The translations under genes and the position numbers were made by a program. A DNA stretch of 64,000 nt from Mycobacteriales bacterium (GTDB lineage Bacteria > Actinomycetota > Actinomycetes > Mycobacteriales > SCTD01). The stretch spans positions 1 through 64,000 of the forward strand of contig JBBDWV010000044.1 in assembly GCA_040902655.1 (NCBI GenBank). The letters run 5' to 3'. This document shows positions 16,042 through 43,177 of the stretch, piece by piece (positions within the stretch are counted from its first letter, which is position 1; every line of letters starts with the position of its first letter). Below the pieces are notes generated by a model. That model made no database searches. It was not told the origin of the DNA and saw nothing but the letters and a program-made list of their open reading frames with translations.

Positions 16042-18990
<2,949 letters not shown>

Positions 18991-23719: not shown

Positions 23720-24619
23720 TCACGGGAAGGTGTTGGCGCGGGGGAGCAGGGCCGGGACGTCATGACCGAGTTGGTCGGTGAGGAAGCTGGCGGTGGGCAG
23801 CAGGGCGGGCAGGTCGATGCCGGTGCGCATCCCCATGCGGTGGAGTAGGTAGAGGAGGTCGTCGGTGGCGATGTTGCCGGTGGCGGCGGGGGCGAACGGG
23901 CAGCCGCCGATGCCGCCGGCGCTGGCGTCGAGCACGGTCACGCCGGTGTCGACGGCGGCGACGGCGTTGGCGAAGCCGGTGTTACGGGTGTTGTGGAAGT
24001 GGAAGCGCAGCTGCTGGTCGCCGCCGATGCCGTCGCGGGTGGCGTGGGTCAGGTCGCGGACCTGGGTGGGGACGCCGACACCGATGGTGTCGGCCAGGCA
24101 CAGCTCGTGCACGCCCCAGTGCGCTGACTGCTCGGCCAGCTCGACCACCCGGTCGCGGGAGACCTCGCCCTCGAACGGGCAGCCGAAGGCGGTGGCCAGG
24201 GTCACGGTGGTGAACAGGCCATTGGCGCGGGCCGCGTCCACGACGTCCTCGGCAGCGCGCATCGCCTCCTCGGTGGACATGTTCTGGTTGCGCCGGCTGA
24301 AGGTGTCGCTGACGCAGACCACCACGTTCACCTCGTCGACGCCGGTGGCCAGTGCCCGGTCCAGGCCGCGTCGGTTGAGCACCAGCCCGGCGTAGGAGAC
24401 GCCGTCGACGCGCGGGACCTGCTCTATCACCGCCTCGGCATCGGCCATCGCCGGCACCAGCTTGGGGTGGGCGAACGAGACCGCCTCGATCCGGGTGGTG
24501 CCCGCCGCGACGAGCCGGTGAATCAGCTCCACCTTCGCGCCGGTCGACAGGATCACGCTCTCGTTCTGCAGCCCGTCGCGCGGGCTGACCTCCACGATCG
24601 TGACGTCGGTGACGTTCAC
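23720..24619 (-). CDS. Hydroxymethylglutaryl-CoA lyase
   Basis: This 299-residue TIM-barrel enzyme belongs to the HMG-CoA lyase family, which cleaves HMG-CoA to acetyl-CoA and acetoacetate in leucine breakdown. It has the DGLQNE active-site motif near the N-terminus, the metal ligands in FHFHNTRNTG, and the family signature GGCPFAPAATGN with the catalytic Cys. I chose GTG 24619, preceded by GGAGGGGCA. Related lyases act on similar 3-hydroxy-3-methyl acyl-CoAs, so the substrate is not certain. No other leucine genes are adjacent. Confidence 0.9.
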   Translation of the reverse strand: MNVTDVTIVEVSPRDGLQNESVILSTGAKVELIHRLVAAGTTRIEAVSFAHPKLVPAMADAEAVIEQVPRVDGVSYAGLVLNRRGLDRALATGVDEVNVVVCVSDTFSRRNQNMSTEEAMRAAEDVVDAARANGLFTTVTLATAFGCPFEGEVSRDRVVELAEQSAHWGVHELCLADTIGVGVPTQVRDLTHATRDGIGGDQQLRFHFHNTRNTGFANAVAAVDTGVTVLDASAGGIGGCPFAPAATGNIATDDLLYLLHRMGMRTGIDLPALLPTASFLTDQLGHDVPALLPRANTFP

Positions 24620-25054
24620 TGCCCCTCCACTGGTCGCGCCGACGGACTGATTGCCCCCCGACTGGCGCCTTCCGACCGGCCCCGGCGCACGACCGGCACG
24701 CGCCCTCCGGCGGGCCTTTTCTGACGCTCGATGTCCAGGCGGAGGCGAGGCGGCCACGCTACGGGCCGGCGCTCAGCCGCAACAGCCGCGAAGCGCTCCC
24801 GTACGACCGGCGAGCGCAGGCCGGCCGGTCGCACTCGTCGCTGTCCGTCCAGGGCGGACGGTGGTCGCGGCCAGGTCTTCGGTATTGCGCAGGTCACACC
24901 ACGTGTGTAGCCTGCTCCACGCTGCGGATGTCGAGTCCACTGAGTGGATGCGACTCGTAGCTGAGGAAGACGGGGTGTAGCCCGCTCGCGACTGTGCAGC
25001 GGCCTACGCCCCGCGACACGTCTCACGACATCGATCCCTTGGAGAGGGGACAAC
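24620..25054. other. 435-bp intergenic region before the first TRAP operon
   Basis: No convincing gene is seen here. Open frames on both strands lack family motifs and continue into neighbours. The right third carries the promoter and tandem operator of the TRAP operon, listed separately. The last part has a GGAGAGGGG ribosome-binding site for dctP. Confidence 0.6.
24885..24948 (+). promoter_or_regulatory. TRAP operon promoter with tandem IclR-type operators
   Basis: TTGCGC (24885-24890) and TAGCCT (24908-24913) are spaced by 17 bp. Two nucleotides after the -10 box begin two copies of TCCAC-N3-GYGGA, 20 bp apart (24916-24928 and 24936-24948). The same layout, with the same -10-to-operator spacing, occurs upstream of the iclR gene near 39.6 kb. 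The position over the transcription start suggests repression. Confidence 0.7.
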
Positions 25055-28312: not shown

Positions 28313-28331
28313 CGCCAGGTCACACCAGCGG
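28306..28331. terminator. Hairpin between convergent dctM and FMN reductase genes
   Basis: CCGCTG at 28306-28311 pairs with CAGCGG at 28326-28331 over a 14-nt loop that contains both convergent stop codons or their ends. It is a weak candidate terminator. Confidence 0.35.
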
Positions 28332-28868
28332 TTCCAGCCCTCGCAGCGAGACCGACGTACGTACTGCGGCGGTCAGGTCGACCAGTGCCGTGCCGTGCGT
28401 CCGGGCGAGCTCCTCGGCCCCAGGGGCGAGGCCCTTGTCCTCGGTGAAGTCCTTGTGGTCGAGGTAGAGGGCGGGCGACAGGGTCTGCGCCGCGAAGAAG
28501 GTGGCGAGCACGGCCCGGAGCCCGTCCGTCGCGAGGAAGTGGTGCCCGCTCGCGCCGGTCATGACGAGCGCGGTCGCCTTGCCGCGCAGCGGTGCGGTGC
28601 CCTCCCCGTGCCTGCCGCGCTCGGTACGCTCGAGCAGCTGCTTGAGGTGTGCGCTGTAGCTGGCCCGGTACACCGGGCTGCCGAACACCACGGCGTCCGC
28701 GCCGTCCATGAGGGCGGTCACCTCCTCGAGCGAGGCGTCAGCCAGCTCGACGAGGCGTGTCGTGGCGCCTGCCGCTTCCGCCCCGGCGAGCATGGCAGAC
28801 AGGGCGGTGGCGGTCCGGCCTCCCGGCTGGGGACTCGCCACGACACCCACGATCGTCAGGTCCTGCAA
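28320..28868 (-). CDS. NADPH-dependent FMN reductase
   Basis: This 182-residue flavodoxin-fold protein is of the SsuE/MsuE type. The N-terminal phosphate-binding loop reads VASPQPGGRTATAL and the flavin-binding segment is GADAVVFGSPVYRASYSAHLKQLLE. Such enzymes supply reduced FMN to two-component monooxygenases. It lies 61 bp downstream of the AraC-family gene on the same strand and may be cotranscribed with it. With the RutA-like monooxygenase 6 kb away it is a plausible second reductase for the same pathway. Confidence 0.88.
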   Translation of the reverse strand: MQDLTIVGVVASPQPGGRTATALSAMLAGAEAAGATTRLVELADASLEEVTALMDGADAVVFGSPVYRASYSAHLKQLLERTERGRHGEGTAPLRGKATALVMTGASGHHFLATDGLRAVLATFFAAQTLSPALYLDHKDFTEDKGLAPGAEELARTHGTALVDLTAAVRTSVSLRGLEPLV

Positions 28869-28929: not shown

Positions 28930-29982
28930 TCAGCTGCGCAGGGTCGCGCTCGGCAGCTCGCCGAAGCGGTCCCGGTACTGCTGCGCGAACCTGCTCGGGT
29001 GGAAGAACCCCCACTTCATCGCGACATCGGTGACCCGCACCTCGCCGGCGTCGCTGCGGAGCAACTCGGCGCGCACGTGGTCCAGGCGCAGCCGCCGAAG
29101 GTAGCTCATCGGGCTCTCGCCCAACGCCTGCTGGAAGGAGGCATGCAGGCTCCGGACGCTCATGCAGCCGACCCGGGCCAGCTCCTGCGGCGTCAGCGGC
29201 TCGTCGGCGTTCGCCTTCATGTACTCCACCACCGGAGCGAGTCGACCCAGACGTACCGTGTCCGGTGGCGACAGCAGGGTGTCGGAGTGCTGGTGCCGGC
29301 CGGCGTGGAGAAGCTGGGTCATGACGAAGGCCTCGAGCTGTTCACGCGCGAGCGGCATCTCGGCCAGGCCACCGGGGCGGTTGAGCTCCTCGGCCAGGAA
29401 CCGGACCGAGCTGAGCAGGCTGCGACCGGTCGGGGTGGTGAGGTCGAGACCGAAAGCGAAGTCGAGCACGTCGGTGACCGGCTGTCCCAGCAGTTCGCCG
29501 AGGTGGCCCTCCAGGCTCGCCCGAGGAATCTTCAGGATGAGCTGTTCCGCGTCGGGACGCCACCGCACCGTGTTGCGCTGGATCGGGCTCAGGACGACGC
29601 CGCTCTGGTCGCCGACGGTGCGCTCCCGTCCGCCGTCGGTCCGGTCGGCGTACGTCTGTCCGGCAGTGGTGAGGTTGATGTGGTAGCAGTTCTCCGTCGC
29701 CGGCATGACCAGCTCGGTCCAGGCGTGGTAGGTCAGGTAGCCCAGCGTGAAGTGGTGGTCGGAGACGGCGTTCAGCGTCATGTCGACCCGGTCCTGCGCG
29801 GCGGTCAGGTCGTGCGGTAGGTACACGCGGGTGACCGCATCACGCGCCTCCTCGAGGCTGTTCGTGCCCAGGACGGGGAAGCGGGAGAGCGGGCGGTCGC
29901 CGGGCAACCGCGTCGCGACGGTCCTCGCGGCCTCGCCCGGCCTGCCGAGCATCTCCGTGGCGCTCGCTGTGACATCCGGCAC
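28930..29982 (-). CDS. AraC-family transcriptional regulator
   Basis: The 350-residue protein has an AraC-binding-like sensor domain (about residues 40-210) and a C-terminal double HTH (LTPQELARVGCMSVRSLHASFQQALGESPMSYLRRLRLDHVRAEL, then VTDVAMKWGFFHPSRFAQQYR). Its size and domain order resemble XylS/NahR-neighbour regulators of aromatic and amine catabolism. Five promoters within 9 kb carry a 21-bp-spaced direct repeat typical of this family, so it is the best candidate activator. I chose GTG 29982; an ATG at 29952 is possible. It diverges from ribBA. Confidence 0.88.
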   Translation of the reverse strand: MPDVTASATEMLGRPGEAARTVATRLPGDRPLSRFPVLGTNSLEEARDAVTRVYLPHDLTAAQDRVDMTLNAVSDHHFTLGYLTYHAWTELVMPATENCYHINLTTAGQTYADRTDGGRERTVGDQSGVVLSPIQRNTVRWRPDAEQLILKIPRASLEGHLGELLGQPVTDVLDFAFGLDLTTPTGRSLLSSVRFLAEELNRPGGLAEMPLAREQLEAFVMTQLLHAGRHQHSDTLLSPPDTVRLGRLAPVVEYMKANADEPLTPQELARVGCMSVRSLHASFQQALGESPMSYLRRLRLDHVRAELLRSDAGEVRVTDVAMKWGFFHPSRFAQQYRDRFGELPSATLRS

Positions 29983-30068
29983 AGCATGACCGTAGCGGCG
30001 CCGCTGCGGCACCTCCAGCCGAGGAGTGCAGCCGACTATCCAGTGAGCGCGGCAACCGGCCCGAGATC

Positions 30069-30131
30069 GGCGCTGCGCGGCCACTGTTGTTCGCTGCGCG
30101 GCTAGTGGGCGCCGCGTCCGCTCTCTAGCGT
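30069..30131 (+). promoter_or_regulatory. AraC-type direct repeat and -10 box upstream of ribBA
   Basis: The half-sites are GGCG-CTGCGC-GGCCA (30069-30083) and TTCG-CTGCGC-GGCTA (30090-30104), 21 bp apart. A TAGCGT -10 box starts 26 bp after the proximal GGCTA (30126-30131). The pattern TGCN-N6-GGNNA at 21-bp spacing is the arrangement known for XylS. Four other promoters in the island share it. Confidence 0.75.
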
Positions 30132-30136
30132 CGCGG

Positions 30137-30152
30137 TGTGGCTTGCGCCACA
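30137..30152. promoter_or_regulatory. Palindromic operator downstream of the ribBA -10 box
   Basis: TGTGGC-TTGC-GCCACA is a perfect 6-4-6 palindrome covering the expected transcription start. A near copy (one arm mismatch, 17 of 19 bases shared including flanks) lies upstream of the flavin reductase fusion gene at 31817-31832. It suggests a common repressor, possibly the GntR-like domain of that fusion. Confidence 0.6.
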
Positions 30153-30171
30153 GCTGCGCTGAGGAGGTTTC

Positions 30172-30273
30172 ATGACGGCGGCTGAGTTCGACGCCCGGAT
30201 CCGGGCGGTCACCGGCGAGGCGAGTCAGGGGTTTCGGCCTGCGGCCGGGACGCCCGGCCGGGGCCGGACATGA
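30172..30273 (+). CDS. Small 33-residue ORF coupled to ribBA
   Basis: An ATG behind a strong GAGGAGG opens a 33-codon frame beginning MTAAEFDARIRAVTGEASQG. Its TGA overlaps the ribBA ATG as ATGA, so ribosomes finishing it can start ribBA. The second half is Gly/Pro/Arg-rich. I recognise no family. It may be a leader peptide, a small regulatory protein or a remnant. No FMN riboswitch is seen upstream, so this coupling may be how ribBA is translated. Confidence 0.6.
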   Translation: MTAAEFDARIRAVTGEASQGFRPAAGTPGRGRT

Positions 30274-31583
30274 CGGGGCGACGGTCGCCCGCGGAGGCCG
30301 TCCAGCACGCGATCGCCGCGCTGGCGGCAGGCGGCATGGTGGTGGTCGTCGACGACGCCGACCGCGAGGACGAGGGCGACCTGGTCGTCGCTGCCGAGCT
30401 GGTCACCGACCAGCAGGTGGCCTTCATGGTGCGGTACGGGACGGGGATCGTCTGTACTCCGATGTCCGCTCAGCGTGCTGACGAGCTGCGCCTCCCGCCG
30501 ATGGTCACCGAGAACACCGATGCCCACGGCACGGCGTTCACCGTGACGGTCGACCACGTCGGCACCGGGACCGGTGTCTCCGCCGTGGACCGCGCGGCGA
30601 CCATCCGCGCCCTGGCGAATCCGGCTACCTCACCCGGGGAGCTCCGGCGGCCGGGACACGTCTTCCCGCTCCGGGGGCGGAACGGCGGGGTCCTGGCCCG
30701 GGCCGGCCACACGGAGGCTGCTGTCGACCTGACCACCATGGCCGGCCTGTCCGGCGTCGGTGTCATCACGGAGATCACTGCAGACGACGGCACCATGCCC
30801 AGCGGCGCGAGCGTGGCTGCCTTCGCCCGGAAGCACAGGCTTCCGCTCCTGGCGATCGCCGATCTCGTCCGGTACCGGCGCGCCACCGAGCGCTTGGTGG
30901 AGCAGGTGGCGACCTCGGCGATGCCGACCGCCTTCGGAGCCTTCCGCGCCGTCGCCTACCGCTCCAGGCTCGACGGCAGCGAGCACCTGGCCCTGGTGAT
31001 GGGAGATGTCGCCGAGGCCGGCCGTTCCGTTGCCGGGGCGCTCGTGCGTGTCCACAGCGAGTGCCTGACCGGCGACATCCTCGGCTCGCTGCGCTGCGAC
31101 TGCGGCGGGCAGTTGGAACAGGCACTGCGAGCCGTCGCTGCCGAGGGCTGCGGCGCAGTCGTTTACCTGAGGGGGCATGAAGGCCGGGGTATCGGCCTGG
31201 GACACAAGATCCGCGCGTATGCCCTGCAGGAGCAGGGGCTGGACACTGTCGACGCCAACACCGCGCAGGGCCTCCCGGCAGATTCGCGCAGCTATGGCGT
31301 CGGCGCGCAGATACTCGGAGACCTGGGCATCAACCGCCTGCGCCTCATCACGAACAATCCCGCCAAGTTCGGCGGTCTGGAAGGCTACGGGCTCACCGTT
31401 GTCGGACGGGTGGCGCTGCCGGTGGTCGAGACGCCGCACAACGTGCGGTACCTGCGGACCAAACGCGAGCGCATGGGGCACGAGCTGGACGTCACCGGCT
31501 CCGGGTCCCTGCCGAGTGCCTCGCCGGGATCGGTTCGACGGTGCACGTCGGACGCCGCTGTCGCCCTGACGCCATCGCCCTGA
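30270..31583 (+). CDS. ribBA: Bifunctional riboflavin enzyme RibBA
   Basis: This 437-residue protein joins two first-step riboflavin enzymes. The N-terminal DHBP synthase domain has DDADREDEGDLV and the substrate loop RRPGHVFPLRGR. The C-terminal GTP cyclohydrolase II domain has the zinc cysteines in SECLTGDILGSLRCDCGG and the motif YLRGHEGRGIGL. It ends in a non-conserved tail of about 30 residues. A ribBA gene alone, without the other rib genes, beside flavin-dependent oxygenase genes suggests extra flavin supply for that pathway. Both domains look intact. Confidence 0.95.
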   Translation: MTGRRSPAEAVQHAIAALAAGGMVVVVDDADREDEGDLVVAAELVTDQQVAFMVRYGTGIVCTPMSAQRADELRLPPMVTENTDAHGTAFTVTVDHVGTGTGVSAVDRAATIRALANPATSPGELRRPGHVFPLRGRNGGVLARAGHTEAAVDLTTMAGLSGVGVITEITADDGTMPSGASVAAFARKHRLPLLAIADLVRYRRATERLVEQVATSAMPTAFGAFRAVAYRSRLDGSEHLALVMGDVAEAGRSVAGALVRVHSECLTGDILGSLRCDCGGQLEQALRAVAAEGCGAVVYLRGHEGRGIGLGHKIRAYALQEQGLDTVDANTAQGLPADSRSYGVGAQILGDLGINRLRLITNNPAKFGGLEGYGLTVVGRVALPVVETPHNVRYLRTKRERMGHELDVTGSGSLPSASPGSVRRCTSDAAVALTPSP

Positions 31584-31593
31584 CGAGGTCGCT

Positions 31594-31657
31594 GACGTGG
31601 TGCGGACAGCGGGTGTCGCTGACGGGATAGGCCCGGTGATGTGACCTTCCCTACGTT
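31594..31657 (+). promoter_or_regulatory. AraC-type direct repeat and -10 box for the flavin reductase fusion
   Basis: GACG-TGGTGC-GGACA (31594-31608) and GTCG-CTGACG-GGATA (31615-31629) are 21 bp apart. A TACGTT -10 box starts 27 bp after the proximal GGATA (31652-31657). The layout equals that at the other four island promoters. Transcription from here would give a leader of about 200 nt containing an 18-codon ORF. Confidence 0.65.
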
Positions 31658-31741
31658 CCCAGGACCGCGGGAAGTTCCCACCGAGAACGCGACCGACCGC
31701 TCTGGCCGTTCACGTTCCGGCCCTGACGACCGGAGGACGCA

Positions 31742-31798
31742 GTGACCTACCCCATGCACGAGGCCGACCAGCTGCAAGGGGGCTGCGACAACTCCTAG
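31742..31798 (+). CDS. Possible 18-residue leader ORF
   Basis: A GTG preceded by GGAGGA opens an 18-codon frame encoding VTYPMHEADQLQGGCDNS and stopping at TAG. It lies in the long leader of the flavin reductase fusion gene. The ribosome-binding site is good, but the frame is very short and may be chance or a remnant. Confidence 0.35.
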   Translation: MTYPMHEADQLQGGCDNS

Positions 31799-31834
31799 CG
31801 TCAAGGGGCAAGCAGGTGTTGCGTGCGCCACAGC
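31796..31834 (+). promoter_or_regulatory. Second -10-like box and palindrome before the reductase fusion
   Basis: A TAGCGT element (31796-31801) is followed by TGTTGC-GTGC-GCCACA (31817-31832), a one-mismatch version of the perfect palindrome at the ribBA promoter. Flanks are also shared (GTGTKGCKTGCGCCACAGC). The site lies 33 bp before the fusion gene start. It may be an autoregulatory operator. Confidence 0.5.
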
Positions 31835-31864
31835 GCACCGATCAGCAGAGTGGAAGGAGAGGAG

Positions 31865-33007
31865 ATGACCGGAGTCGCCCACCCGCAGGCGAGCCTCGCA
31901 CAGGAGGTCTTTCGGGACGTGATCGGCTGCTTCGCCAGCGGCGTCACCGTCATCACGACGACCTCGAACGGTGTCGACCACGGCACCACCGCCAGCGCCG
32001 TGTCCTCACTGTCCATGGACCCGCCGATGCTGTTGATCTGCCTCAACAAGACCAGCGAAACGCAGGCCGCCGTCCTGGAGTCGGGTGTCTTCGGAGTCAA
32101 CATCCTCGCCGAGGGCCAGGGCGAGCTGGCCTACCGGTTCGCGAAGAAGGGGCAGGACAAGTTCGACGGCGTACCGGTCGTGCGCGGGGGACAGACCGGT
32201 GTCCCGCTGCTCGAGGGCGCTCTGGCCCACCTCGAGTGCGAGGTGCAGGAGAGCGTGGCTGGCGGTACCCACACCGTCTTTCTGGCGCGGGTGGGACAGG
32301 CTGTCGGCTTCGACGCAGCGCCCCTCACGTATTTCCGCGGACGCTTCGGGCGGCTGGAGAGCGCGCTGGACGAGGCCGCCTACCGTGAGCTGCGGACCCG
32401 CGTCATCGAACGAAGGCTGCCCGTCGGGCAGACGTTGGATCCGGGCAGGCTCGCCACCGACCTCGGGGTGGACGCCCAGCGGGTCTTCTACGCGCTGACC
32501 AAGCTGTGTGCGGACGACCTCGTTGCACGGCAGGTCGACGGCTACACAGTCGAGCCCCTCACCGGGCCGGCCGCCGAGCAGCTGTTCGATGCCAGGTGCA
32601 CGGTGCAGGTGGGGGTCGTCGAACAGACGGTCGGGACGGTAGTCGGCGATGCGCTCGACCTGCTGGACGCGCTCGCCACCGAGCTGGCGCAGATCGTCAC
32701 CAGCAACTCCCCGGATCTTGCGACGTTCCTCCACACCTCCCACTCCTTCCACCGGCACCTGGTCGCGCTCGCCGGCTGCGCCCCGCTGAACGAGCTGTAC
32801 GAACGCCTGGGCATCCCGGCGTTCTGGAACCGGATGATGGCCGACCGGCAGTGGTGGCGCGAGTTCGATGTTGTCCACCACACGGATCTGGTCCGCGCGT
32901 ATCGGGCCGGGGACGTGACCGAGGCCAAGCGGCTGGTCTGTCAGCATCGAGACCAGGTCAAGGGCCTGGTGCGGGCGTTGATCAACCAAGCCGGCGGGGA
33001 GGTCTGA
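31865..33007 (+). CDS. Flavin reductase fused to a GntR/FadR-type regulatory domain
   Basis: The 380-residue protein has two parts. Residues about 12-165 form a flavin reductase-like domain of the HpaC/RutF/NtaB group (FASGVTVITT, SSLSMDPPMLLICL, FGVNILAEGQ). Residues about 172-231 form a winged-helix of the GntR kind (YRELRTRVIERRLPVGQTL), and about 236-378 an FCD effector domain with His residues at expected places (SFHRHLVALAG, CQHRDQV). It should supply reduced flavin to the RutA-like oxygenase, and could bind DNA or sense the substrate. A GAAGGAGAGGAG site precedes the ATG. Some HPA hydroxylase reductases carry a C-terminal MarR-like domain, a partial parallel. Confidence 0.88.
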   Translation: MTGVAHPQASLAQEVFRDVIGCFASGVTVITTTSNGVDHGTTASAVSSLSMDPPMLLICLNKTSETQAAVLESGVFGVNILAEGQGELAYRFAKKGQDKFDGVPVVRGGQTGVPLLEGALAHLECEVQESVAGGTHTVFLARVGQAVGFDAAPLTYFRGRFGRLESALDEAAYRELRTRVIERRLPVGQTLDPGRLATDLGVDAQRVFYALTKLCADDLVARQVDGYTVEPLTGPAAEQLFDARCTVQVGVVEQTVGTVVGDALDLLDALATELAQIVTSNSPDLATFLHTSHSFHRHLVALAGCAPLNELYERLGIPAFWNRMMADRQWWREFDVVHHTDLVRAYRAGDVTEAKRLVCQHRDQVKGLVRALINQAGGEV

Positions 33008-33036
33008 CCGGGCCCGGAGGACGCCGGTGCCCAGGC

Positions 33037-34260
33037 CTAGATGACGCCGATGGCGGCGAGCTCGTCCAGGGCCCGCTCATCCAGCCCGAGCAGCTCGCCG
33101 TAGACCTCGGCGTTGTCCGCGCCCGCTCGGGGACGACCGGCCCAGCGGACCGAGCCCGGCGTGGCCGACAGCTTCGGCACCACACCCGGGCCCAGGACGT
33201 CGCCACCTACTCGCTCGTCGAAGTGCGGCACGAGCATGTCCCGTGACTGGAACTGGCCATCCTGCACCACGTCGGCGATGGTGTTCACCGGACCGACGAC
33301 CACGCCGGCGTCCTCGAGGATCCGGGTGAGGGTGTCGGAGTCGTGCTGTCGCGCCCAGTCAGCGACGATGTCGTCGATCTCGTCCTGGTGGCGGCCGCGC
33401 GCCGTGTGCGAGTGGAAACGGGGGTCATCGACCAGCTCAGGACGGCCCATCGCGGTGCACAGCCGGCTGAAGACGCTGTTCTGGTTGGCGGCGATGACCA
33501 CCCAGCGCCCGTCCGCAGACTGGTACAGGTTGGACGGTGCGATCCCCGTGAGCCGGGTGCCCGAGGGCTCGCGCACGATCCCGCCGCGGTCGTAGTCCGG
33601 GATGCTCGACTCCATGAGGGCCAGGCAGGACTCGGTGAGCGCCACGTCGACCACCTGGCCCCTGCCGTCGCCTCGGCGGTCGCGGGCGAGCAGCGCCATC
33701 AGCACCCCTTGGGCGGCGAACATGCCGGCCAGCGAGTCCCCGATCGACAACGCCGGTCGCGGCGGAGGGCCTCCCGGGTAGCCGTTGAGGTAGCGCATGC
33801 CGCTCACCGCCTCGGCCACCGACGCGTACCCGGGACGCCGGGAATCCGGGCCGGTCTGCCCGTAGCCCGACACTCGAGCCACGACCAGCTGCGGATTGCG
33901 CTCACCGAGCAGCTTCGGGTCCAGGCCCCACTTCTCCAGAGTGCCGGGGCGGAAACTCTCCAGGAGAACGTCGGCCGTGTCGACGAGGCGCAGGAACAGG
34001 TCTCGGCCCTCGGCGCAGCGCAGGTCCAGCGTGACACAGCGTTTGTTGCGCGCATGCACCGTCCAGAAGAAGTGGTGACCGTCCTGCTCGGCCTGACCCC
34101 ATTCGCGCAGGGGGTCCGGCGAACCCGGCGCCTCCACCTTGATGACGTCTGCCCCGTGGTCGGCGAGCAGTCGCCCGCAGAAGGGGCCGGCGATGATCGA
34201 GCCGAGCTCGAGCACGCGCACACCGGTCAGGGCCGCAGGGGCGAGGTCGTCTGTGGACAC
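33037..34260 (-). CDS. CaiB/BaiF-type CoA-transferase
   Basis: This 407-residue family III CoA-transferase should move CoA between an acyl-CoA and a free carboxylic acid. It has the N-terminal VLELGSIIAGPFCGRLLADHGADVIKVE, the SFRPGTLEKWGLD segment, and the likely catalytic Asp in SIGDSLAGMFAA. Within the AraC-type regulon it probably activates the acid made by the monooxygenase and aldehyde dehydrogenase. The -10 box ends only 7 bp before the GTG, so the mRNA may be leaderless. It converges on the reductase fusion gene. Confidence 0.9.
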   Translation of the reverse strand: MSTDDLAPAALTGVRVLELGSIIAGPFCGRLLADHGADVIKVEAPGSPDPLREWGQAEQDGHHFFWTVHARNKRCVTLDLRCAEGRDLFLRLVDTADVLLESFRPGTLEKWGLDPKLLGERNPQLVVARVSGYGQTGPDSRRPGYASVAEAVSGMRYLNGYPGGPPPRPALSIGDSLAGMFAAQGVLMALLARDRRGDGRGQVVDVALTESCLALMESSIPDYDRGGIVREPSGTRLTGIAPSNLYQSADGRWVVIAANQNSVFSRLCTAMGRPELVDDPRFHSHTARGRHQDEIDDIVADWARQHDSDTLTRILEDAGVVVGPVNTIADVVQDGQFQSRDMLVPHFDERVGGDVLGPGVVPKLSATPGSVRWAGRPRAGADNAEVYGELLGLDERALDELAAIGVI

Positions 34261-34267
34261 GACGACG

Positions 34268-34330
34268 AAACTAGGAACCCTTCGCCCACCGGTCTATCCG
34301 CGCGCTGCCCGGGACTGTCCGTCCTGCGCA
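34268..34330 (-). promoter_or_regulatory. AraC-type direct repeat and -10 box for the CaiB gene
   Basis: On the minus strand TGCG-CAGGAC-GGACA (34330-34316) and GGCA-GCGCGC-GGATA (34309-34295) are 21 bp apart. A TAGTTT -10 box (34273-34268) starts 26 bp after the proximal GGATA. Transcription would begin at about the GTG start codon. Confidence 0.7.
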
Positions 34331-34395
34331 GCTACCAGGGGCGGCTCGGCGGCGTCCGGTGGCACCCGGCGTCCCGGGTGCCTGTGCCGTCGGTG

Positions 34396-35583
34396 TCAGT
34401 CGTGCCGGACGCCTGCCTGCACCATGCGCGGCATGACCTCGGAGCCGAAATACTTCAGCTCCTCGTTGAAGTCCACCAGCCCCATGATCATGCCGTCCAT
34501 CCCGGCTTCCTGCAGCTTGACGAACTCCTCCGTCACCTGGTCCGGCGTGCCGACGATCGGATAGCCGCCCCAGCCGGCGATGAACCGGGTCTGCATCTCC
34601 TTGACCGCGTGGTCGAAGGACTGGCTCGCCCCGGAACTGGCGATCTTGATGACGTTGCCGGCGGCTCCCCAGTCACCGTCGTCGATGACCCGCTGGTGGA
34701 ACTCCTTGGCCTCCTTCTCGGTGTCCCGTGCGATCACGAGCCCGTAGGTCATCACCTGGATCTCCCGGTCGTGCTCACGGCGGGCCTTCTCCTTGATGGT
34801 GGAGGTGTACGCGGCGATGTCGTCCAGCGTGGCCAACGACGCGAAGTTGATGTCCACGTTTCGGGCGGAGAACTCGACGCCTGCCGCCGAATTCCCGGCG
34901 TTGAGCAGGACCGGCCGCGGAGCCTGGTGCGGCTTGGGATAGGCCTCGACGTCGAGCCCGTGGAAGTACGTGCCGTTGACATCGAAGGGGCCCTCCTCCC
35001 GCCACAGCTGCATGGCGAAGTCCAGCCACTCCTGGCCGAAGGCGTAGCGCTCGTCGTGCTCGCGCTGCTCGCGGCCGAACATCTCCATCTCGGGCGTCAC
35101 CCAGCCCATCACCAGGTTGAGCGCGAACCGACCGCGCGAGATGTGGTCGATCGTCGTGGCCGCCTTGGCAGCCACGATCGGGTGCACGGTCGGCAGGTGG
35201 CTGGTCGAGGCGATCGCGATCCGCTCGGTGGCCTGTGCGACGCCCGCCGCCCAGGTGTAGGTCTCGAAGCAGTTGCCGTTGAAGTTCGTGCTGCCACCGA
35301 AGCCTTTCCAGCGGGCGATCGGCACCAGGGCCTCCAAACCGAGGTCATCTGCGCGACGAGCGATCTCGAGCGTGTGGTCCCAGGTGACCTCATAACTACT
35401 CGGTGCGTGGCTCATCACCAGTCCGTAGGAGCAGTTGGTACCGAACAGCCCAAGCTTCATCTTCTGGTCGTTGAGCAGCGGGTTGGTCTGCCGGCGGTCC
35501 ACCAGGGGCTGGGACTCCGACGGCGGACGCGGCTCCGTCGGGGCGAGACCGAGACGCTCATTCGCGGACTGGGTGATGGTCAC
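34396..35583 (-). CDS. RutA-like flavin-dependent monooxygenase
   Basis: This 395-residue luciferase-like TIM-barrel oxygenase resembles pyrimidine oxygenase RutA. Shared features are RWKGFGGSTNFNGNCFETYTWAAG, ATTIDHISRGRFALNLVMGW and the late segment IVGTPDQVTEEFVKLQEAG. Such two-component enzymes use reduced FMN from a separate reductase, and RutA-type members use a flavin-N5-oxide or peroxide to cleave C-N, C-S or C-Cl bonds. The first 40 residues form an extra, probably flexible, N-terminus. The GTG follows GAGGAGAACC. It is in the AraC-type regulon with ribBA and the reductase fusion. The substrate is unknown. Confidence 0.88.
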   Translation of the reverse strand: MTITQSANERLGLAPTEPRPPSESQPLVDRRQTNPLLNDQKMKLGLFGTNCSYGLVMSHAPSSYEVTWDHTLEIARRADDLGLEALVPIARWKGFGGSTNFNGNCFETYTWAAGVAQATERIAIASTSHLPTVHPIVAAKAATTIDHISRGRFALNLVMGWVTPEMEMFGREQREHDERYAFGQEWLDFAMQLWREEGPFDVNGTYFHGLDVEAYPKPHQAPRPVLLNAGNSAAGVEFSARNVDINFASLATLDDIAAYTSTIKEKARREHDREIQVMTYGLVIARDTEKEAKEFHQRVIDDGDWGAAGNVIKIASSGASQSFDHAVKEMQTRFIAGWGGYPIVGTPDQVTEEFVKLQEAGMDGMIMGLVDFNEELKYFGSEVMPRMVQAGVRHD

Positions 35584-35681
35584 AGCGGTTCTCCTCGGAA
35601 GTGGTGGGGGCTGGCCGGTGCCGCGCGCGAACTCCCCCGGTACAGGGACCAGGCGCTGCGTCGCGCGTCACGTCCAGCCAG

Positions 35682-35745
35682 ACGCTACGGTCGTGGCGGT
35701 CGCAGACGACAGCCGCGCAACGCGAGCCGATGACCGCCCACTGCA
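35682..35745 (-). promoter_or_regulatory. AraC-type direct repeat and -10 box for the monooxygenase
   Basis: On the minus strand TGCA-GTGGGC-GGTCA (35745-35731) and CGCG-TTGCGC-GGCTG (35724-35710) are 21 bp apart. A TAGCGT -10 box (35687-35682) starts 27 bp after the proximal GGCTG. The distal half-site is the best match to the XylS-type TGCA-N6-GGN pattern. Confidence 0.7.
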
Positions 35746-35836
35746 GACTTCTGTCGGAGATCGCCCGGCGTACGGATTGGCAGGTGGCCGGCTCCAGGGG
35801 GAACGGGACCGTCCTCCGGCTCTCCTCCAGCCGGGA

Positions 35837-37318
35837 TCACCCGAGCTGGAACGGGTCCCGGGTGCCACCGGTCAACTCCACGAAGACGGACTTGGCCTCG
35901 GTGTATTCGTTGAGTGAGTCGATGCCGTTCTCGCGACCGAGCCCGCTGTGCCCGAATCCCCCGAAAGGCATGTTGGGTGCCACCACCCGGTACGCGTTTA
36001 TCCAGACGGTTCCGGCGCGGAGCTTGGCGGCGACCCGGTGCGCCCGGTGCACGTCCTTGGTCCAGACGGCGCCGGCCAGTCCGTAGGGCGTGTCGTTGGC
36101 CAGCTTCAACGCCTCGTCCTCGGACGTGAAAGTGATGGCGGCCAGGACCGGGCCGAAGATCTCCTCTCGGACAACGGTGCTGTCCAGCGTCACGTTGGTG
36201 ACCACAGTGGGCTTGACGAAAAGGTCACCGCTCTCGGGGGCGGCCTCCCCGCCGCAGGCGAAGCTCCCTCCTTCGTCCTTGGCGCTCTGCAGGTAGCCCA
36301 GCACCTTCTCGTACTGCGGCTGGTTGGCGACCGGCCCCATCTCGGTCTCCGGATCGGTCGGGTCACCGAGCTTGATGGTGTTGGCCCGCGCCACGATCTT
36401 CTCCACCAGTGCGTCATGGATGTCGGCGTGCACGATGAGGCGGGAACCCGCCATGCAGGTCTGCCCCGTCGCGGCGAAGACACCGGCGACCAGGCCGTTC
36501 GCGGCGGCGTCCAGGTCCGCGTCCGGAAAGACGATCTGCGGGCTCTTTCCGCCCAGCTCCAGCGTGACCCTGTTGACATTGGCGGCCGCCGCCTGCGCCA
36601 CCTTGATCCCGGTGGCCGTGGAGCCGGTGAAGGCCACCTTGTCCACCCCGGGGTGAGCAGCCAGCCGTTCGCCGGTGGACCGGTCCCAGCCGGTCACGAC
36701 GTTGAGCACCCCGGCGGGCAGCCCGGCCTCGAAGAGCACCTGGGCGAAGGCGACCGTCGAGGCAGGCGAGTGTTCCGAGGGCTTGGCGACGCAGGTGTTG
36801 CCGGCGGCGAGCAGCGGCGCGAGCTTGAACGTGAGCAGCAGCAGCGGCGAGTTCCAGGGCGTGATGGCCCCGACGACGCCGACCGGCTCTCTGCGGGTGT
36901 AGGCGAAGTAGTTCGGGTTGACCGGCGGCACGGTCCGGCCCTCGATCTTGTCTGCCAGACCGGCGAAGTAGTAGTACCACTGCGGCAGGGCCTTCAGCTG
37001 TCCGAGCATCTCCCGTAGGAGCTTCCCGGAGTCCTGCACCTCGAGACGGGCCAGCCGCTCGGCGTTGGCCGCGATGCCGTCGCCGCAGGCCCGCATGATG
37101 GCGGCGCGCTCGAAACCGGTCTTCTGGCCCCACTCGCCGTCGAAGGCGGCGCGGGCGGCGGCGACGGCATGGTCGATGTCTTCGGGGGAGCCGTCGGCGA
37201 TCCGGGCCCAGGGCTTCCCCAGGTAGGGATTCTGGGATTCGAACGCCTTACCGGACAGCGCATCGACGGCTCGACCGTTGATGAAGAGCTTGAATTCCTC
37301 GAGCTGGCTGGAGTTCAT
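35837..37318 (-). CDS. Aldehyde dehydrogenase
   Basis: This 493-residue NAD(P)-dependent aldehyde dehydrogenase is intact. It has the ITPWNSPLLLLTFKLAPLL region, the cofactor motif FTGSTATGIKVAQ, the general-base Glu in LELGGKSPQ, the catalytic Cys in GQTCMAGSR, and the late motif EEIFGPVL. Homologues oxidise hydroxymuconic, betaine and other aldehydes. In this regulon it probably oxidises an aldehyde released by the monooxygenase to an acid for CoA activation. GAGGAAAGAG precedes the ATG. The specificity is unknown. Confidence 0.93.
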   Translation of the reverse strand: MNSSQLEEFKLFINGRAVDALSGKAFESQNPYLGKPWARIADGSPEDIDHAVAAARAAFDGEWGQKTGFERAAIMRACGDGIAANAERLARLEVQDSGKLLREMLGQLKALPQWYYYFAGLADKIEGRTVPPVNPNYFAYTRREPVGVVGAITPWNSPLLLLTFKLAPLLAAGNTCVAKPSEHSPASTVAFAQVLFEAGLPAGVLNVVTGWDRSTGERLAAHPGVDKVAFTGSTATGIKVAQAAAANVNRVTLELGGKSPQIVFPDADLDAAANGLVAGVFAATGQTCMAGSRLIVHADIHDALVEKIVARANTIKLGDPTDPETEMGPVANQPQYEKVLGYLQSAKDEGGSFACGGEAAPESGDLFVKPTVVTNVTLDSTVVREEIFGPVLAAITFTSEDEALKLANDTPYGLAGAVWTKDVHRAHRVAAKLRAGTVWINAYRVVAPNMPFGGFGHSGLGRENGIDSLNEYTEAKSVFVELTGGTRDPFQLG

Positions 37319-37379
37319 CGACTCTTTCCTCTACTGCAGTGAGGTGCAGAGCACCTTCGTTGGGCCTCGTCGAGGGGCC

Positions 37380-37443
37380 ACGGTAGCCACAGCGGCCGCC
37401 CCCCGGCTATCCGCCGGGCGAAGCAGCATGACCGCAGAGCGCA
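37380..37443 (-). promoter_or_regulatory. AraC-type direct repeat and -10 box for the aldehyde dehydrogenase
   Basis: On the minus strand TGCG-CTCTGC-GGTCA (37443-37429) and TTCG-CCCGGC-GGATA (37422-37408) are 21 bp apart. A TACCGT -10 box (37385-37380) starts 27 bp after the proximal GGATA. The expected transcript leader is about 55 nt. Confidence 0.7.
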
Positions 37444-37461: not shown

Positions 37462-39449
37462 TCACCGGAGGTCGCCGGCCACGCCAGCCGGGACGGCCGG
37501 AACGCCGATCGGCAGCCTCCCGCCTTGCCGCACGGTCGCCAGCAGTCCGCCGGCGCGCAGCACGTCGCGCTCGCCCGGTGACAGCTGGAGCTCGAGCTCG
37601 ACCTCGCCCACCCCCTCGACCTGCGCCCGCACCGACTCCTGGCCGGCCAGTGCAGCCGTCAGACCGGAGATCTGCCAGCGTTGGCCCACCCGGGCCTGGG
37701 CCCGGCCCATCTCGTCGGCCAGTACGAGTGGGACGACGCCGACCGAGATGAGGTTGCGCCGGTGGATCCGGGCGTAGCTGCCGGCGACGATCGCCCGGAC
37801 ACCCAGGTGCAACGGCGCCAGCGCGGCGTGCTCCCGGGACGAACCCTGCCCGTAGTTGTGGCCACCGACGATGATGCCGCCGCCCCACTGCAGCGCCCGG
37901 TCGTGGAAGCCAGGGTCCAGTCGCCGGAACATGAATCGGGCGCATTCCTCGATGTTGGACCACACCGACATGGCGATCGCCCCGTCCGGGGCCATGTCGC
38001 CGGTGGAGATGTCGTCGCCGACCACGACCAGGACCCGTGCGTCAAGGTTCTCGGGCAGTGGACCGGAGCGCGGTGGGGGAACCAGGTTCGGGCCCCGCTC
38101 GACGACGACCGCCCGCCGCTCCTGCAGCGGCTTGGGTGTGGTGATGTGCCGGTCGTGCACGGTCACATCCGGCTCGGCCGCCGGTCGCAGCGGGGGGCGG
38201 TCGGCACGGCGCGGGTCGGTCAGCACACCGGTCAGCGCGCTGGCCGCCGCTGTCGACGGCGAACACAGGTACACGCAGTCCTCAGCGGTCCCGCTGCGGC
38301 CCGGGAAGTTGCGGTTGAAGGTGCGCAGCGACGCCGCACCCTTGAGCGGTGCCTGCCCGATGCCCACGCACGGGCCGCAGACCGGTTCGAGCATCCGCGC
38401 GCCAGCCTCCATCAGGTCCTCGTACACCCCCGATCGCACGATCGTGTCCAGGATCTGCCGTGATCCAGGCGTGACGGTCAGCTGGATGCCGGGCGCCACC
38501 GTGTGGCCGCGCAGCACGGCTGCGACGGTGGCCAGGTCCTCGTAGGAGCTGTTGACCGAGACCCGACGCACACCTGCACGAGCTCGATGCCGGCGGCCTC
38601 GGCGACCGGGACGACGTTGCCCGGAGACGGCGGTAGGGCTACCAGCGGCTCCAGCGAGGACAGGTCAATACGCTCGACCGCGTCGTAGCTGGCGCCGGGA
38701 TCGGCTGCCAGCGGGTGCCACGCGTCCTCCCGCCCCTGCGCGGCCAGCCACCGCCGGGTCTCGTCGTCCGAGGGGAACACTCCCGTCGTCGCGCCGGTCT
38801 CCATGACCATGTTGCAGATCGTGGCCCGTCCCGCGGTCGAGATGCCCGGCACACCGTCGCCGAAGAACTCGAACACCGCCCCGCGGCCACCTCGCACCCC
38901 GTAGCGGCGCAGCAGCTCGAGGACCACGTCCTTGGCCTCGACTCCCTCGCTCAGCCGCCCGATCAGCTCCACCCCGATGACTCGTGGGCAGGGCAGCTCG
39001 AACCCGTAGCCGGCCATCGCCACGGCGACCTCCAGGCCACCCGCTCCGGTCGCGAACATGCCGACCGCACCCGCCGTCGTGGTGTGCGAGTCGGCCCCGA
39101 CCAGCAGCTGCCCTGGTCGGGCGAACCGCTCCAGGTGGATGTAGTGCGAAATGCCGTGTCCCGGCGGCGAGAAGCGCATGCCGTAGCGTTCGGAGAACGT
39201 CCACAGGTAGCGGTGGTCCTGCATGTTCTTGTCATCGATCTGCAGCACGTTGTGATCCACGTACATCACCGCGAGCGGGACGGCCACGTCCATGACGTCA
39301 CCCAGCAGTTCGAACTGCATCGCCGTCATCGTCCCGGTCGCGTCCTCGACGAGTACCTGGTCCACCGACACCGTGATGTCCTGGCCCGCGACCAGCTCAC
39401 CGGCCACCAGATGACTGCCGAGCAGCTTCACCGTCAACGTCTCGCCCAC
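37462..39449 (-). pseudogene. Aconitase-family hydratase, frameshifted at a cluster Cys codon
   Basis: Two overlapping leftward frames together encode one protein of about 660 residues. The first (GTG 39449, to about 38558) has the LeuC/aconitase segments VDHNVLQIDDKN, GADSHTTTAGAVGMFATG and LEVAVAMAGYGF. It ends ELVQVCVGS and then leaves frame. The second resumes with VNSSYEDL and holds CGPC and the swivel domain (GGHNYGQGSSREHAALAP). The lost codon is exactly the first [4Fe-4S] Cys in the usual GSC(T/V)NSS motif. A net loss of one base near 38557-38558 explains it. It could be a true null mutation or a sequencing error. An aconitase, homoaconitase or 2-methyl-aconitase role cannot be separated. 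Confidence 0.85.
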
Positions 39450-39594
39450 TCGCCACGCCTCACGATCGTGGCCAGCACCCCCCTACGGCGCCGACCGGGC
39501 GGCCATCCTGTCACGCGTCTCACGCAACACCTGGGGCGCAGATCGTGCCCGGGCCGGGTCGGGACACCGGCCCATGACCAGATCTCCCGACCTG

Positions 39595-39658
39595 TTGCCG
39601 CGGTCACGGATCTGTGTCACAGTGATCCACCACGTGGATATCGCGTCCACGATGCGGA
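39595..39658 (+). promoter_or_regulatory. iclR promoter with tandem operators
   Basis: TTGCCG (39595-39600) and CACAGT (39618-39623) are 17 bp apart. Two nucleotides later begin two TCCAC-N3-GYGGA palindromes, 20 bp apart (39626-39638 and 39646-39658); the first is the perfect ATCCAC-CAC-GTGGAT. Layout and spacing equal those of the TRAP operon promoter near 24.9 kb. The site also lies between iclR and the divergent aconitase-family gene. Confidence 0.72.
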
Positions 39659-39665
39659 TTCATGA

Positions 39666-40598
39666 ATGATGTCCGACGAGCTCATGGGGGAGAGCGAAAC
39701 CACGATGCCAGGTCCGGCTGCACCCTCTCGGCCGAGCGCGGTCGGCCCGGGGCGAGCCGCGTCCGCCGAGCCGCACGGCCGCAAGCCCGTGCTCGTGCTG
39801 CGCAAGGCCCGCGCCGTGCTCGACGCCTTCACACCCGCCGTGCCCGAGCTGACTGCGCGCGAGGTCCAGCGTCGTACCGGCCTGCCCCCGACAACCTGTC
39901 TGAGGCTGCTCCAGGCGTTGGTGGACGAGGGGTTCCTGGACCGTCAGGACGACAAGTACCGCCCGGGACTGGCCCTGCTCGCGTGGGCGGGCACGGCCAC
40001 CGAGGCCCTGGACCTGGTCGCCACCGCCGCGCCGGTGCTCGCCGCGTTGCGTGACGCCACAGGGGAGAGTGTGTGCCTGTTCGTCCGGCAGGGCGGGCAC
40101 CACATCTGCGTCGCGGTCGAGCAGACCTCGCACGCTGTCGTGCACATCCTGCGGGTCGGCCAGGTGCTCCCGCTGCACGCCGGCTCGGCAGGCAGGGTGT
40201 TCCTCGCCTTTGACCCGACGGCGGCCGAGGCGCTGCCCGCGGCCCGGCTTCCTGCGTTCACCGAGCACACACTGACCGGGCGTGGGCAGCTGCAGCAGGC
40301 GGTGGACGCGGTGCGACGAGACGGACATGCCGTGTCGTACGAGGAGCGTTCGGTCGGTGCAGCGTCGCTGAGTGCTCCCGTCTTCGATCACACCGGTTCA
40401 CTGGTTGCGGTCCTCGGCATCGCTGCTCCGGTCCAGCGGTTCGGCCCGGACCTGGTCCCGGCGCACGCCCAGGAGGTGACCGGCGCAGCCGCCAAGCTCT
40501 CGCGTCGTCTCGGCCATCGCGGTGAAGGAGCAGGCGTGATCGCCCGGAACGCCGGCGGCGGGGCCGGGACCGCTGCCGGCGAGCGGGTCGAGCAGTGA
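39666..40598 (+). CDS. IclR-family transcriptional regulator
   Basis: The 310-residue protein has an N-terminal winged helix (LTAREVQRRTGLPPTTCLRLLQALVDEGFLDRQ) and an IclR effector domain (LPLHAGSAGRVFLAF ... GHAVSYEERSVGAASLSAPVFDHTG). Most members are repressors or activators of acid and aromatic catabolism. Tandem operators lie just upstream of its own start and at the TRAP operon, so it probably regulates both. Several ATGs are in frame in the first 15 codons; the precise start is uncertain. The last 30 residues are Gly/Ala-rich. It is coupled to the next CaiB gene by GTGA. Confidence 0.9.
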   Translation: MMSDELMGESETTMPGPAAPSRPSAVGPGRAASAEPHGRKPVLVLRKARAVLDAFTPAVPELTAREVQRRTGLPPTTCLRLLQALVDEGFLDRQDDKYRPGLALLAWAGTATEALDLVATAAPVLAALRDATGESVCLFVRQGGHHICVAVEQTSHAVVHILRVGQVLPLHAGSAGRVFLAFDPTAAEALPAARLPAFTEHTLTGRGQLQQAVDAVRRDGHAVSYEERSVGAASLSAPVFDHTGSLVAVLGIAAPVQRFGPDLVPAHAQEVTGAAAKLSRRLGHRGEGAGVIARNAGGGAGTAAGERVEQ

Positions 40599-41842: not shown

Positions 41843-41858
41843 TCACCCCCGAGCTCTG

Positions 41859-43064: not shown

Positions 43065-43177
43065 GTGGCGCCCTTCTCGTTCAGGTGCGGAGAGGCCCAG
43101 TGTCCCCGCGTGCAGGGAGGGCTGCAGCACCGGGCCAGGGCTGTGTGACCATGACGCGCACCAGGATCGGAGTTTCG

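Follow-up and report, generated by a model that had tools for sequence, protein, structure and literature searches.

Probable regulon of an AraC/XylS-family protein with XylS-type operators in an actinobacterial monooxygenase and ribBA gene cluster

A stretch of 64,000 nucleotides from a Mycobacteriales bacterium (contig JBBDWV010000044.1 of assembly GCA_040902655.1, positions 1 to 64,000; here called the window) carries a gene cluster encoding a luciferase-like (LLM class) flavin monooxygenase, a flavin reductase, a CaiB-type CoA-transferase, an aldehyde dehydrogenase, a RibBA protein and an AraC/XylS-family regulator. Analysis of the sequence indicates that the promoters of this cluster very probably form a local regulon of one AraC/XylS-type activator. 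An earlier note on this DNA had proposed that five promoters, those of ribBA, the flavin reductase gene, caiB, the monooxygenase gene and the aldehyde dehydrogenase gene, share a direct repeat of the XylS type at a fixed distance from the -10 box, and this geometry was confirmed at all five. The spacing of the half-sites is exactly 21 bp throughout, and the GG of the proximal half-site is followed by a TANNNT -10 box, at 26 bp for ribBA and caiB and at 27 bp for the other three (Table 1).

Across the five sites a C at position -8 before each GG and the GG itself are constant. After the GG and one free base follow C-A in the distal half-site and T-A or T-G in the proximal one. The consensus as it had been written (TGCN-N6-GGNCA followed by NNCN-N6-GGMTR) is too narrow, as its distal TGC is found in three of the five sites only (caiB, monooxygenase and aldehyde dehydrogenase), while the distal half-site begins with GGC at ribBA and with GAC at the flavin reductase gene. 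In the window this strict pattern is matched at 34330, 35745 and 37443, all on the minus strand, and elsewhere in the bacterium's own genome at one place (mirrored control, 2). Two further sites had been overlooked. One, the sixth, belongs to the AraC-family promoter; the other, a probable seventh, precedes the gene of an HMG-CoA-lyase-like enzyme. The latter site is weaker than the others, with the distal A replaced by G, and the lyase-like gene, which seems to have this weak site of its own, is judged a rather likely member of the regulon.

Table 1. Positions in the window of the operators with their -10 boxes and of the cluster genes. Operators are written as distal and proximal half-sites, followed by the -10 box and its distance from the proximal GG; scores are those of the matrix trained on sites of relatives (see text).
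Feature	Position	Strand	Description	Score
Operator and -10 box of the AraC-family gene	29989..30051	-	CGCG-N6-GGATA-N6-TGCA-N6-GGCTG, TACGGT at 26 bp	32.7
Operator and -10 box of ribBA	30069..30131	+	GGCG-N6-GGCCA-N6-TTCG-N6-GGCTA, TAGCGT at 26 bp	34.9
Operator and -10 box of the flavin reductase gene	31594..31657	+	GACG-N6-GGACA-N6-GTCG-N6-GGATA, TACGTT at 27 bp	26.1
Operator and -10 box of caiB	34268..34330	-	TGCG-N6-GGACA-N6-GGCA-N6-GGATA, TAGTTT at 26 bp	35.2
Operator and -10 box of the LLM monooxygenase gene	35682..35745	-	TGCA-N6-GGTCA-N6-CGCG-N6-GGCTG, TAGCGT at 27 bp	37.6
Operator and -10 box of the aldehyde dehydrogenase gene	37380..37443	-	TGCG-N6-GGTCA-N6-TTCG-N6-GGATA, TACCGT at 27 bp	30.6
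Probable seventh operator and -10 box, before the HMG-CoA-lyase-like gene	24756..24818	-	TGCG-N6-GGTCG-N6-AGCG-N6-GGCTG, TAGCGT at 26 bp	21.4
AraC/XylS-family regulator	28930..29982	-	Pfam AraC_binding_2 3e-33 and HTH_18 1.3e-21, above cut-offs	
RibBA, second copy in the genome	30270..31583	+	NCBIfam PRK09311.1, above cut-off	
Flavin reductase fused to a GntR/FCD domain	31823..33007	+	Flavin_Reduct 1.7e-41, FCD 6.8e-11; alternative start ATG 31866	
CaiB, class III CoA-transferase	33037..34260	-	Pfam CoA_transf_3 2.4e-123; GTG start	
Luciferase-like (LLM class) flavin monooxygenase	34396..35583	-	nearest to SfnG and RutA, below both cut-offs	
Aldehyde dehydrogenase	35837..37318	-	Pfam Aldedh 3.5e-174	
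HMG-CoA-lyase-like enzyme	23720..24619	-	HMGL-like 9.2e-44; NCBIfam PRK05692, above cut-off	
NADPH-dependent FMN reductase, downstream of the regulator	28320..28868	-	Pfam FMN_red 1.2e-22	

The GTG starts of caiB (34260) and of the AraC-family gene (29982) lie 7 nt after their -10 boxes, so that both transcripts would be leaderless, and in several Pseudonocardia loci inspected by eye the starts of the CaiB and flavin reductase genes lie 6-8 nt after the box. The assigned -10 boxes are supported because leaderless starts at 6-8 nt fit them. The start of the regulator is most likely GTG 29982; the start at 30084 of the long open reading frame (ORF) is regarded as wrong because it lies upstream of the assigned promoter. 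A TTGACA-like hexamer 17 bp before the -10 box, the only spacing scored, was found in none of the seven promoters.

The specificity of the sites was examined in the whole own genome (3,558,883 bases in 62 contigs, 97.87% complete). With the rule GGNYA-N16-GGNTR-N21/22-TANNNT and zero mismatches, six matches were obtained, all of them in the cluster, while the mirrored control gave two. This rule, which replaces the strict consensus as the defining rule, was picked after the five sites and the sites of relatives were known. The form GGNCA-N16-GGMTA-N21/N22-TANNNT with up to one mismatch is found in five places, which are the five named sites (mirrored control, 15). A matrix trained on 54 distinct sites of relatives ranks the seven sites of the window first with scores from 21.4 to 37.6; behind them the next position reaches 11.8, and the highest score in 20 shuffled windows is 11.3. 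In both half-sites this matrix shows GC at -9/-8, then GG, then A/C, T/C and A/G; the search pattern itself prescribed GG, T/C and A/G but not the GC at -9/-8.

Searching the genomes of 84,980 species with the LLM protein yielded 54 loci with a total of 1.03 Mb, two genomes giving two loci each. They include loci of Modestobacter, Klenkia, Pseudonocardia, Actinomycetospora, Streptomyces, Mycolicibacterium, Arthrobacter, Saccharopolyspora and Nakamurella, together with some Bacillales and one deltaproteobacterium. The cluster genes recur in many of these loci with order and orientation changed; the CaiB and HMG-CoA-lyase-like genes, for instance, are adjacent in many relatives and stand 8 kb apart in the window. 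By crude gene calling, and with some loci cut short, ORFs of the respective families were counted in 45 loci for the monooxygenase, 42 for the aldehyde dehydrogenase, 36 for the AraC-family protein, 21 for CaiB, 20 for RibBA and 17 each for the lyase-like enzyme and the flavin reductase. The defining pattern matches 59 times in the 54 loci (one of these at the very edge of locus L049), spread over at least nine genera according to the record titles, against a single match of its mirror image and 0-2 matches in third-order Markov shuffles. Both distances stand out sharply: the 59 matches occur at a half-site spacing of 21 bp, and any other spacing from 8 to 44 gives 0-4, while the -10 box lies at 26 bp in 32 cases and at 27 bp in 26, with 0-1 at any other distance from 8 to 59.

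A test independent of the choice of the rule is given by a matrix built from the five sites of the window, because it was trained on these named sites only. In the relatives' loci it found 115 matches above a score of 16, 108 of which lie upstream of cluster genes, in 47 of the 54 loci. The windows upstream of cluster genes make up 6.8% of the sequence of the loci, and shuffles give 1.8 matches. After merging of loci with LLM genes at least 92% identical, 32 loci remained with 63 matches, 58 of them upstream of cluster genes in 27 loci. By these counts, and with no match of the pattern at an unrelated promoter in the own genome, the regulon withstands in this genome the specificity check that the earlier note had set as a possible refutation. 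The matrix trained on relatives' sites places 112 of 120 matches near cluster genes; being applied to the same relatives, it is not independent there, neither in this count nor in the identity classes of the regulator given below, and the main counts therefore use the five-site matrix. Counted by gene, leaving out genes below 50% identity (except the flavin reductase) and genes at locus edges, a site lies upstream of 35 of 44 aldehyde dehydrogenase genes, 15 of 20 CaiB genes and 23 of 36 AraC-family genes.

The regulator gene had been placed in the middle of the regulated genes. It is situated instead at the left edge, on the minus strand, divergent from ribBA. The protein has the C-terminal double helix-turn-helix and the effector-binding N-terminal domain of the AraC/XylS family (Pfam) and no second PF12833 protein of the own genome passes the cut-off, one other place falling short of it with 26.3 bits. 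Identity with XylS of pWW0 is 26% over 279 amino acids (pairwise E 1e-28) and 38% (40 of 105 positions) in the helix-turn-helix region, by which the protein is assigned to the same family as XylS and is not a XylS ortholog. Presence of a site goes along with relatedness of the regulator: with the relatives' matrix, at least one site was found in all 36 loci with an AraC-family protein of at least 50% identity, in five of eight at 40-50% and in one of four below 40%, and four of the six loci without an AraC-family gene seen in the stretch also carry a site. The proposal of a XylS-type regulon under the local AraC-family protein thus draws support from the operator geometry, from the relatedness to XylS, from the sole PF12833 protein of the genome and from the site at the regulator's own promoter.

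A relative of the regulator was found in one of 24 genomes of the family (E up to 1e-90) and in one of 394 genomes of the class (a limit of E 1e-80, with no more than five candidates scored in each genome), which in both cases is the own genome; at these thresholds weaker relatives would be missed. Such rarity, combined with the spread over distant genera, may point to horizontal transfer. Searches of plasmid and phage proteins with the regulator and with the monooxygenase returned matches below 60% identity only.

The layout of the window sites is the same as that of a well-known promoter. In 22 kb of pWW0 the pattern has a sole match, TGCA-N6-GGATA-N6-TGCA-N6-GGCTA with TAGGCT at 26 bp, which stands before the benA-annotated dioxygenase gene, at the promoter known as Pm. 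As in Pm, the window has tandem half-sites (in a relaxed form of TGCA-N6-GGNTA) 21 bp apart, a proximal half-site at -35 with a fixed distance to a TANNNT box, 26 bp in Pm, and a related regulator, so the claim of XylS-type repeat geometry stands. The systems differ in the regulator, of only 26% identity, in the number of promoters, of which several separate ones are found here, and in the genes, which are those for benzoate dioxygenase and meta-cleavage in pWW0 and for an LLM monooxygenase, a CoA-transferase and RibBA in the window. According to passages of the published work, XylS binds TGCA-N6-GGNTA-N6-TGCA-N6-GGNTA (PMC4514859), that is two 15-bp repeats of which the proximal one is bound first, and touches RNA polymerase (PMC5481539).

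A closer parallel by organism is found in Rhodococcus sp. YH-5B, where the AraC-type activator CphR controls cphA2A1, which encodes a two-component flavin monooxygenase. Passages of the paper on CphR (PMC6205950) describe two repeats of 15 bp with the sequence TGCA-N6-GGNTA between -35 and -69, and reductases with a helix-turn-helix tail as known from chlorophenol systems. Actinobacterial host, type of activator, repeats, two-component flavin monooxygenase and a reductase with a C-terminal helix-turn-helix are thus features in common. In the passages of PMC6205950 examined, the repeats are 20 bp apart by the stated positions, there is one target promoter, the oxygenase is of the HpaB type and acts on 4-chlorophenol, and ribBA, CoA-transferase and lyase genes do not appear; the window has a spacing of 21 bp, several promoters, an oxygenase of the Bac_luciferase family and all three of these genes. 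The suggestion that the regulon had not been described consequently holds in part. An operator of this type has already been published, even for an actinobacterium, as these passages on Rhodococcus show, and it is for the gene set itself that no description was met in the open literature searched. It was met nowhere in titles and abstract openings of the literature on pyridine, trigonelline, citramalyl-CoA lyase and clusters with ribBA or GTP cyclohydrolase II.

Other named systems were compared at the protein level. The best NCBIfam model of the regulator is that of AndR, regulator of anthranilate 1,2-dioxygenase (NF041686, E 6.3e-39), and AndR itself is ruled out by the score of 134 bits, the cut-off being 350. 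By sequence the closest families of the LLM protein are the dimethylsulfone monooxygenase SfnG and the pyrimidine monooxygenase RutA, with scores below the curated cut-offs for both (191 of 383 and 158 of 498 bits), and the flavin reductase reaches 89 of 255 bits with RutF. No other rut or sfn genes were recognised among the window proteins scanned. Searches of the PDB gave SfnG/RutA-like, HMG-CoA lyase, CoA-transferase and AraC-type relatives.

Several observations weigh against a regulon of this kind. Among the five named sites, that of the flavin reductase has the lowest score (26.1) and is separated from its gene by about 200 nt. The distal half-sites of the five carry GGNCA and not GGNTA, and two of them lack TGC. 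The site before the HMG-CoA-lyase-like gene is weak, and none of seven such genes in the relatives has one. Likewise no site of their own was seen for the FMN reductase (0 of 5), the second CaiB (0 of 5) or the aconitase-like genes (0 of 3 each) in the 54 loci, and many genes of the cluster proper are without one, only 16 of 56 LLM, 10 of 28 flavin reductase and 9 of 25 ribBA genes being preceded by a site; site-less genes in relatives may stand behind other cluster genes and so reflect operons. In the window, the relatives' matrix found no XylS-type site at the neighbouring TRAP transporter, aconitase-like pair and IclR genes. The five-site matrix finds no match in seven of the 54 loci, and with the relatives' matrix eight (L042, L044, L050, L052, L054, L055, L057 and L063) have no site at a cluster gene. 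Over 18 whole genomes of relatives the bare pattern matches 55 times and its mirror image 91 times (1-6 and 0-18 per genome, respectively). Of the 55 matches, 30 belong to the cluster loci themselves (about 21 kb each), two fall within 6 kb of them and 23 elsewhere, the last including one counted as outside because it is on another contig (G422:C36); one of the 18 genomes (G421) has no match in its cluster locus. In these whole genomes the number of matches proves nothing, but their location does. Finally, the direction of regulation, activation, is assumed by analogy with XylS and CphR.

The five sites might be read as chance, in that a GC-rich window is full of GG-rich pairs 21 bp apart from which five look-alikes were picked; the strict pattern fits only three of five sites, and the mirrored controls with one mismatch (15 matches) and in the 18 genomes (91 against 55) point in the same direction. 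Yet the matches in the own genome all fall in the cluster, relatives carry their sites at the same genes, shuffles give 0-2 matches where 59 are seen, and the spacings peak at single values. With 108 of 115 matches concentrated in 6.8% of the relatives' sequence, chance is refuted and retains next to no probability. The sites could also be recent copies of one promoter segment, kept with no need of regulatory selection, as they all lie within about 13 kb and as the identity among the seven operators outside the consensus (mean 0.35, range 0.21-0.45; compared from -40 to +46 relative to the distal GG) is slightly above that of random window pairs (0.30, standard deviation 0.06). Since no pair exceeds 0.45, both strands are used and other genera retain the sites in clusters with a changed gene order, we regard such copying as extremely unlikely, in agreement with the argument of the earlier note against promoter duplication.

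The remaining alternatives accept the sites and concern the protein that reads them. A GntR/FCD domain, as part of the flavin reductase fusion, and an IclR regulator are both encoded in or beside the cluster and could be the reader. The tandem TGCA-N6-GGNTA arrangement, however, is the XylS pattern, and a XylS-family regulator is encoded here, the sole one above the cut-off and with a site at its own promoter; moreover, the sites are kept in relatives, whose flavin reductase ORFs have not the length to hold the fusion and among whose 54 loci a relative of IclR appeared in one (E 1e-20). Another reader is thus very unlikely. The AraC-family protein might, on the other hand, bind the sites and repress, or act both ways, given the site at its own promoter and a proximal half-site that covers the -35 region. 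A TTGACA-like hexamer is missing at the 17-bp spacing, as in activator-dependent promoters, and XylS and, in the passages of PMC6205950, CphR are activators; repression or action in both directions is therefore considered unlikely.

In the preferred explanation, that of a local activator, a dimer of the AraC-family protein bound to its effector would occupy both half-sites, contact RNA polymerase and activate transcription, including that of its own gene. Judged from the enzyme families, the LLM protein and the flavin reductases would act as a two-component flavin monooxygenase converting the substrate to an aldehyde, which the aldehyde dehydrogenase would oxidise; the CoA-transferase would then activate the acid, and the HMG-CoA-lyase-like enzyme would cleave the product, giving a keto acid and acetyl-CoA. 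Being under the same control, the second ribBA would raise the flavin supply while the oxygenase is made. For the wider picture, an undescribed actinobacterial catabolic regulon of at least nine genera with reshuffled genes, in which a single XylS-type activator has a separate operator at many transcription units and the breakdown of a possibly nitrogen-containing substrate is coupled to flavin synthesis via a dedicated ribBA paralog, we have a slight preference.

The own genome has two ribBA copies, which are 57% identical. The other copy (contig C3, 24578-25780) lies in a rib-his region, where the surrounding frames, inspected by eye, look like ribD, riboflavin synthase and HisG. A dedicated ribBA under the operator of the oxygenase suggests that flavin supply may be matched to demand, and a vitamin-synthesis gene under a catabolic activator, if true, would be a simple case of such matching of a cofactor. 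The analysis provides a sharp operator rule, and names a likely regulator, for a set of actinobacterial catabolic clusters that are so far uncharacterised. The rule also opens a route to the substrate through the compounds that switch these promoters on. One well-studied pseudomonad promoter and many actinobacterial ones share the layout of XylS/Pm, down to the 26 bp that lead to the -10 box.

With regard to the substrate, cleavage of a pyridine-like ring, as with PyrA and TgnB, has too little support to be claimed, and no amide hydrolase family recurs among the named ORF families. The same holds for a lower pathway of the citramalate type. In Arthrobacter sp. B6 (locus L056) a site at 16592-16644 (+) with a score of 39.5 stands before an ammonium transporter gene (17036-18466; 119.9 bits, below the family cut-off). 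Nitrilase-like genes are found near the cluster at L097:593-1720 and L101:2868-3950, in one Arthrobacter and one Klenkia; the two share 33% identity and score under the family cut-off. The transporter and nitrilase-like genes are thin hints that the substrate possibly contains nitrogen. Two strong sites that resemble each other in sequence occur at about 1046 (-) in L056 (38.9) and about 6954 (-) in L098 (36.7), two Arthrobacter loci, with no clear downstream gene at either.

Among the remaining features, the GntR domain of the flavin reductase fusion scores 24.8 bits, under the cut-off of 27, and flavin reductase ORFs of the relatives have a median length of 171 amino acids (17 ORFs), too short for a fusion. 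None of the NCBIfam models listed for the LLM protein, CaiB and the aldehyde dehydrogenase was above its cut-off (for the latter, among the best 25 of 42 models). The start of the HMG-CoA-lyase-like gene is probably GTG 24619, behind GGAGGGG. The FMN reductase gene downstream of the regulator has no site of its own in the window and could be co-transcribed with the regulator gene; FMN reductases recur in clusters of the relatives. Beside the regulon, at 37462-43130, lie an aconitase-like pair, an IclR regulator (39666-40598), a second CaiB and an acyl-CoA dehydrogenase, all without XylS-type sites, and in Arthrobacter locus L097 an IclR gene also adjoins LeuC/LeuD-like frames.

Two leaders in the window contain small ORFs with ribosome-binding-like sequences. 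The one in the flavin reductase leader (31742-31798) encodes 18 amino acids with GGCDN and was not found in relatives by its peptide pattern, and the one in the ribBA leader (30172-30273) encodes 33 amino acids and overlaps the ribBA start. TTGCG-CCACAG-like sequences are present in the same two leaders, at 30137-30152 for ribBA, where they form the inverted repeat TGTGGC/GCCACA, and at 31819-31833 for the flavin reductase gene. Similar GTGGC...GCACA stretches were seen by eye in the leaders of Klenkia and Modestobacter LLM genes.

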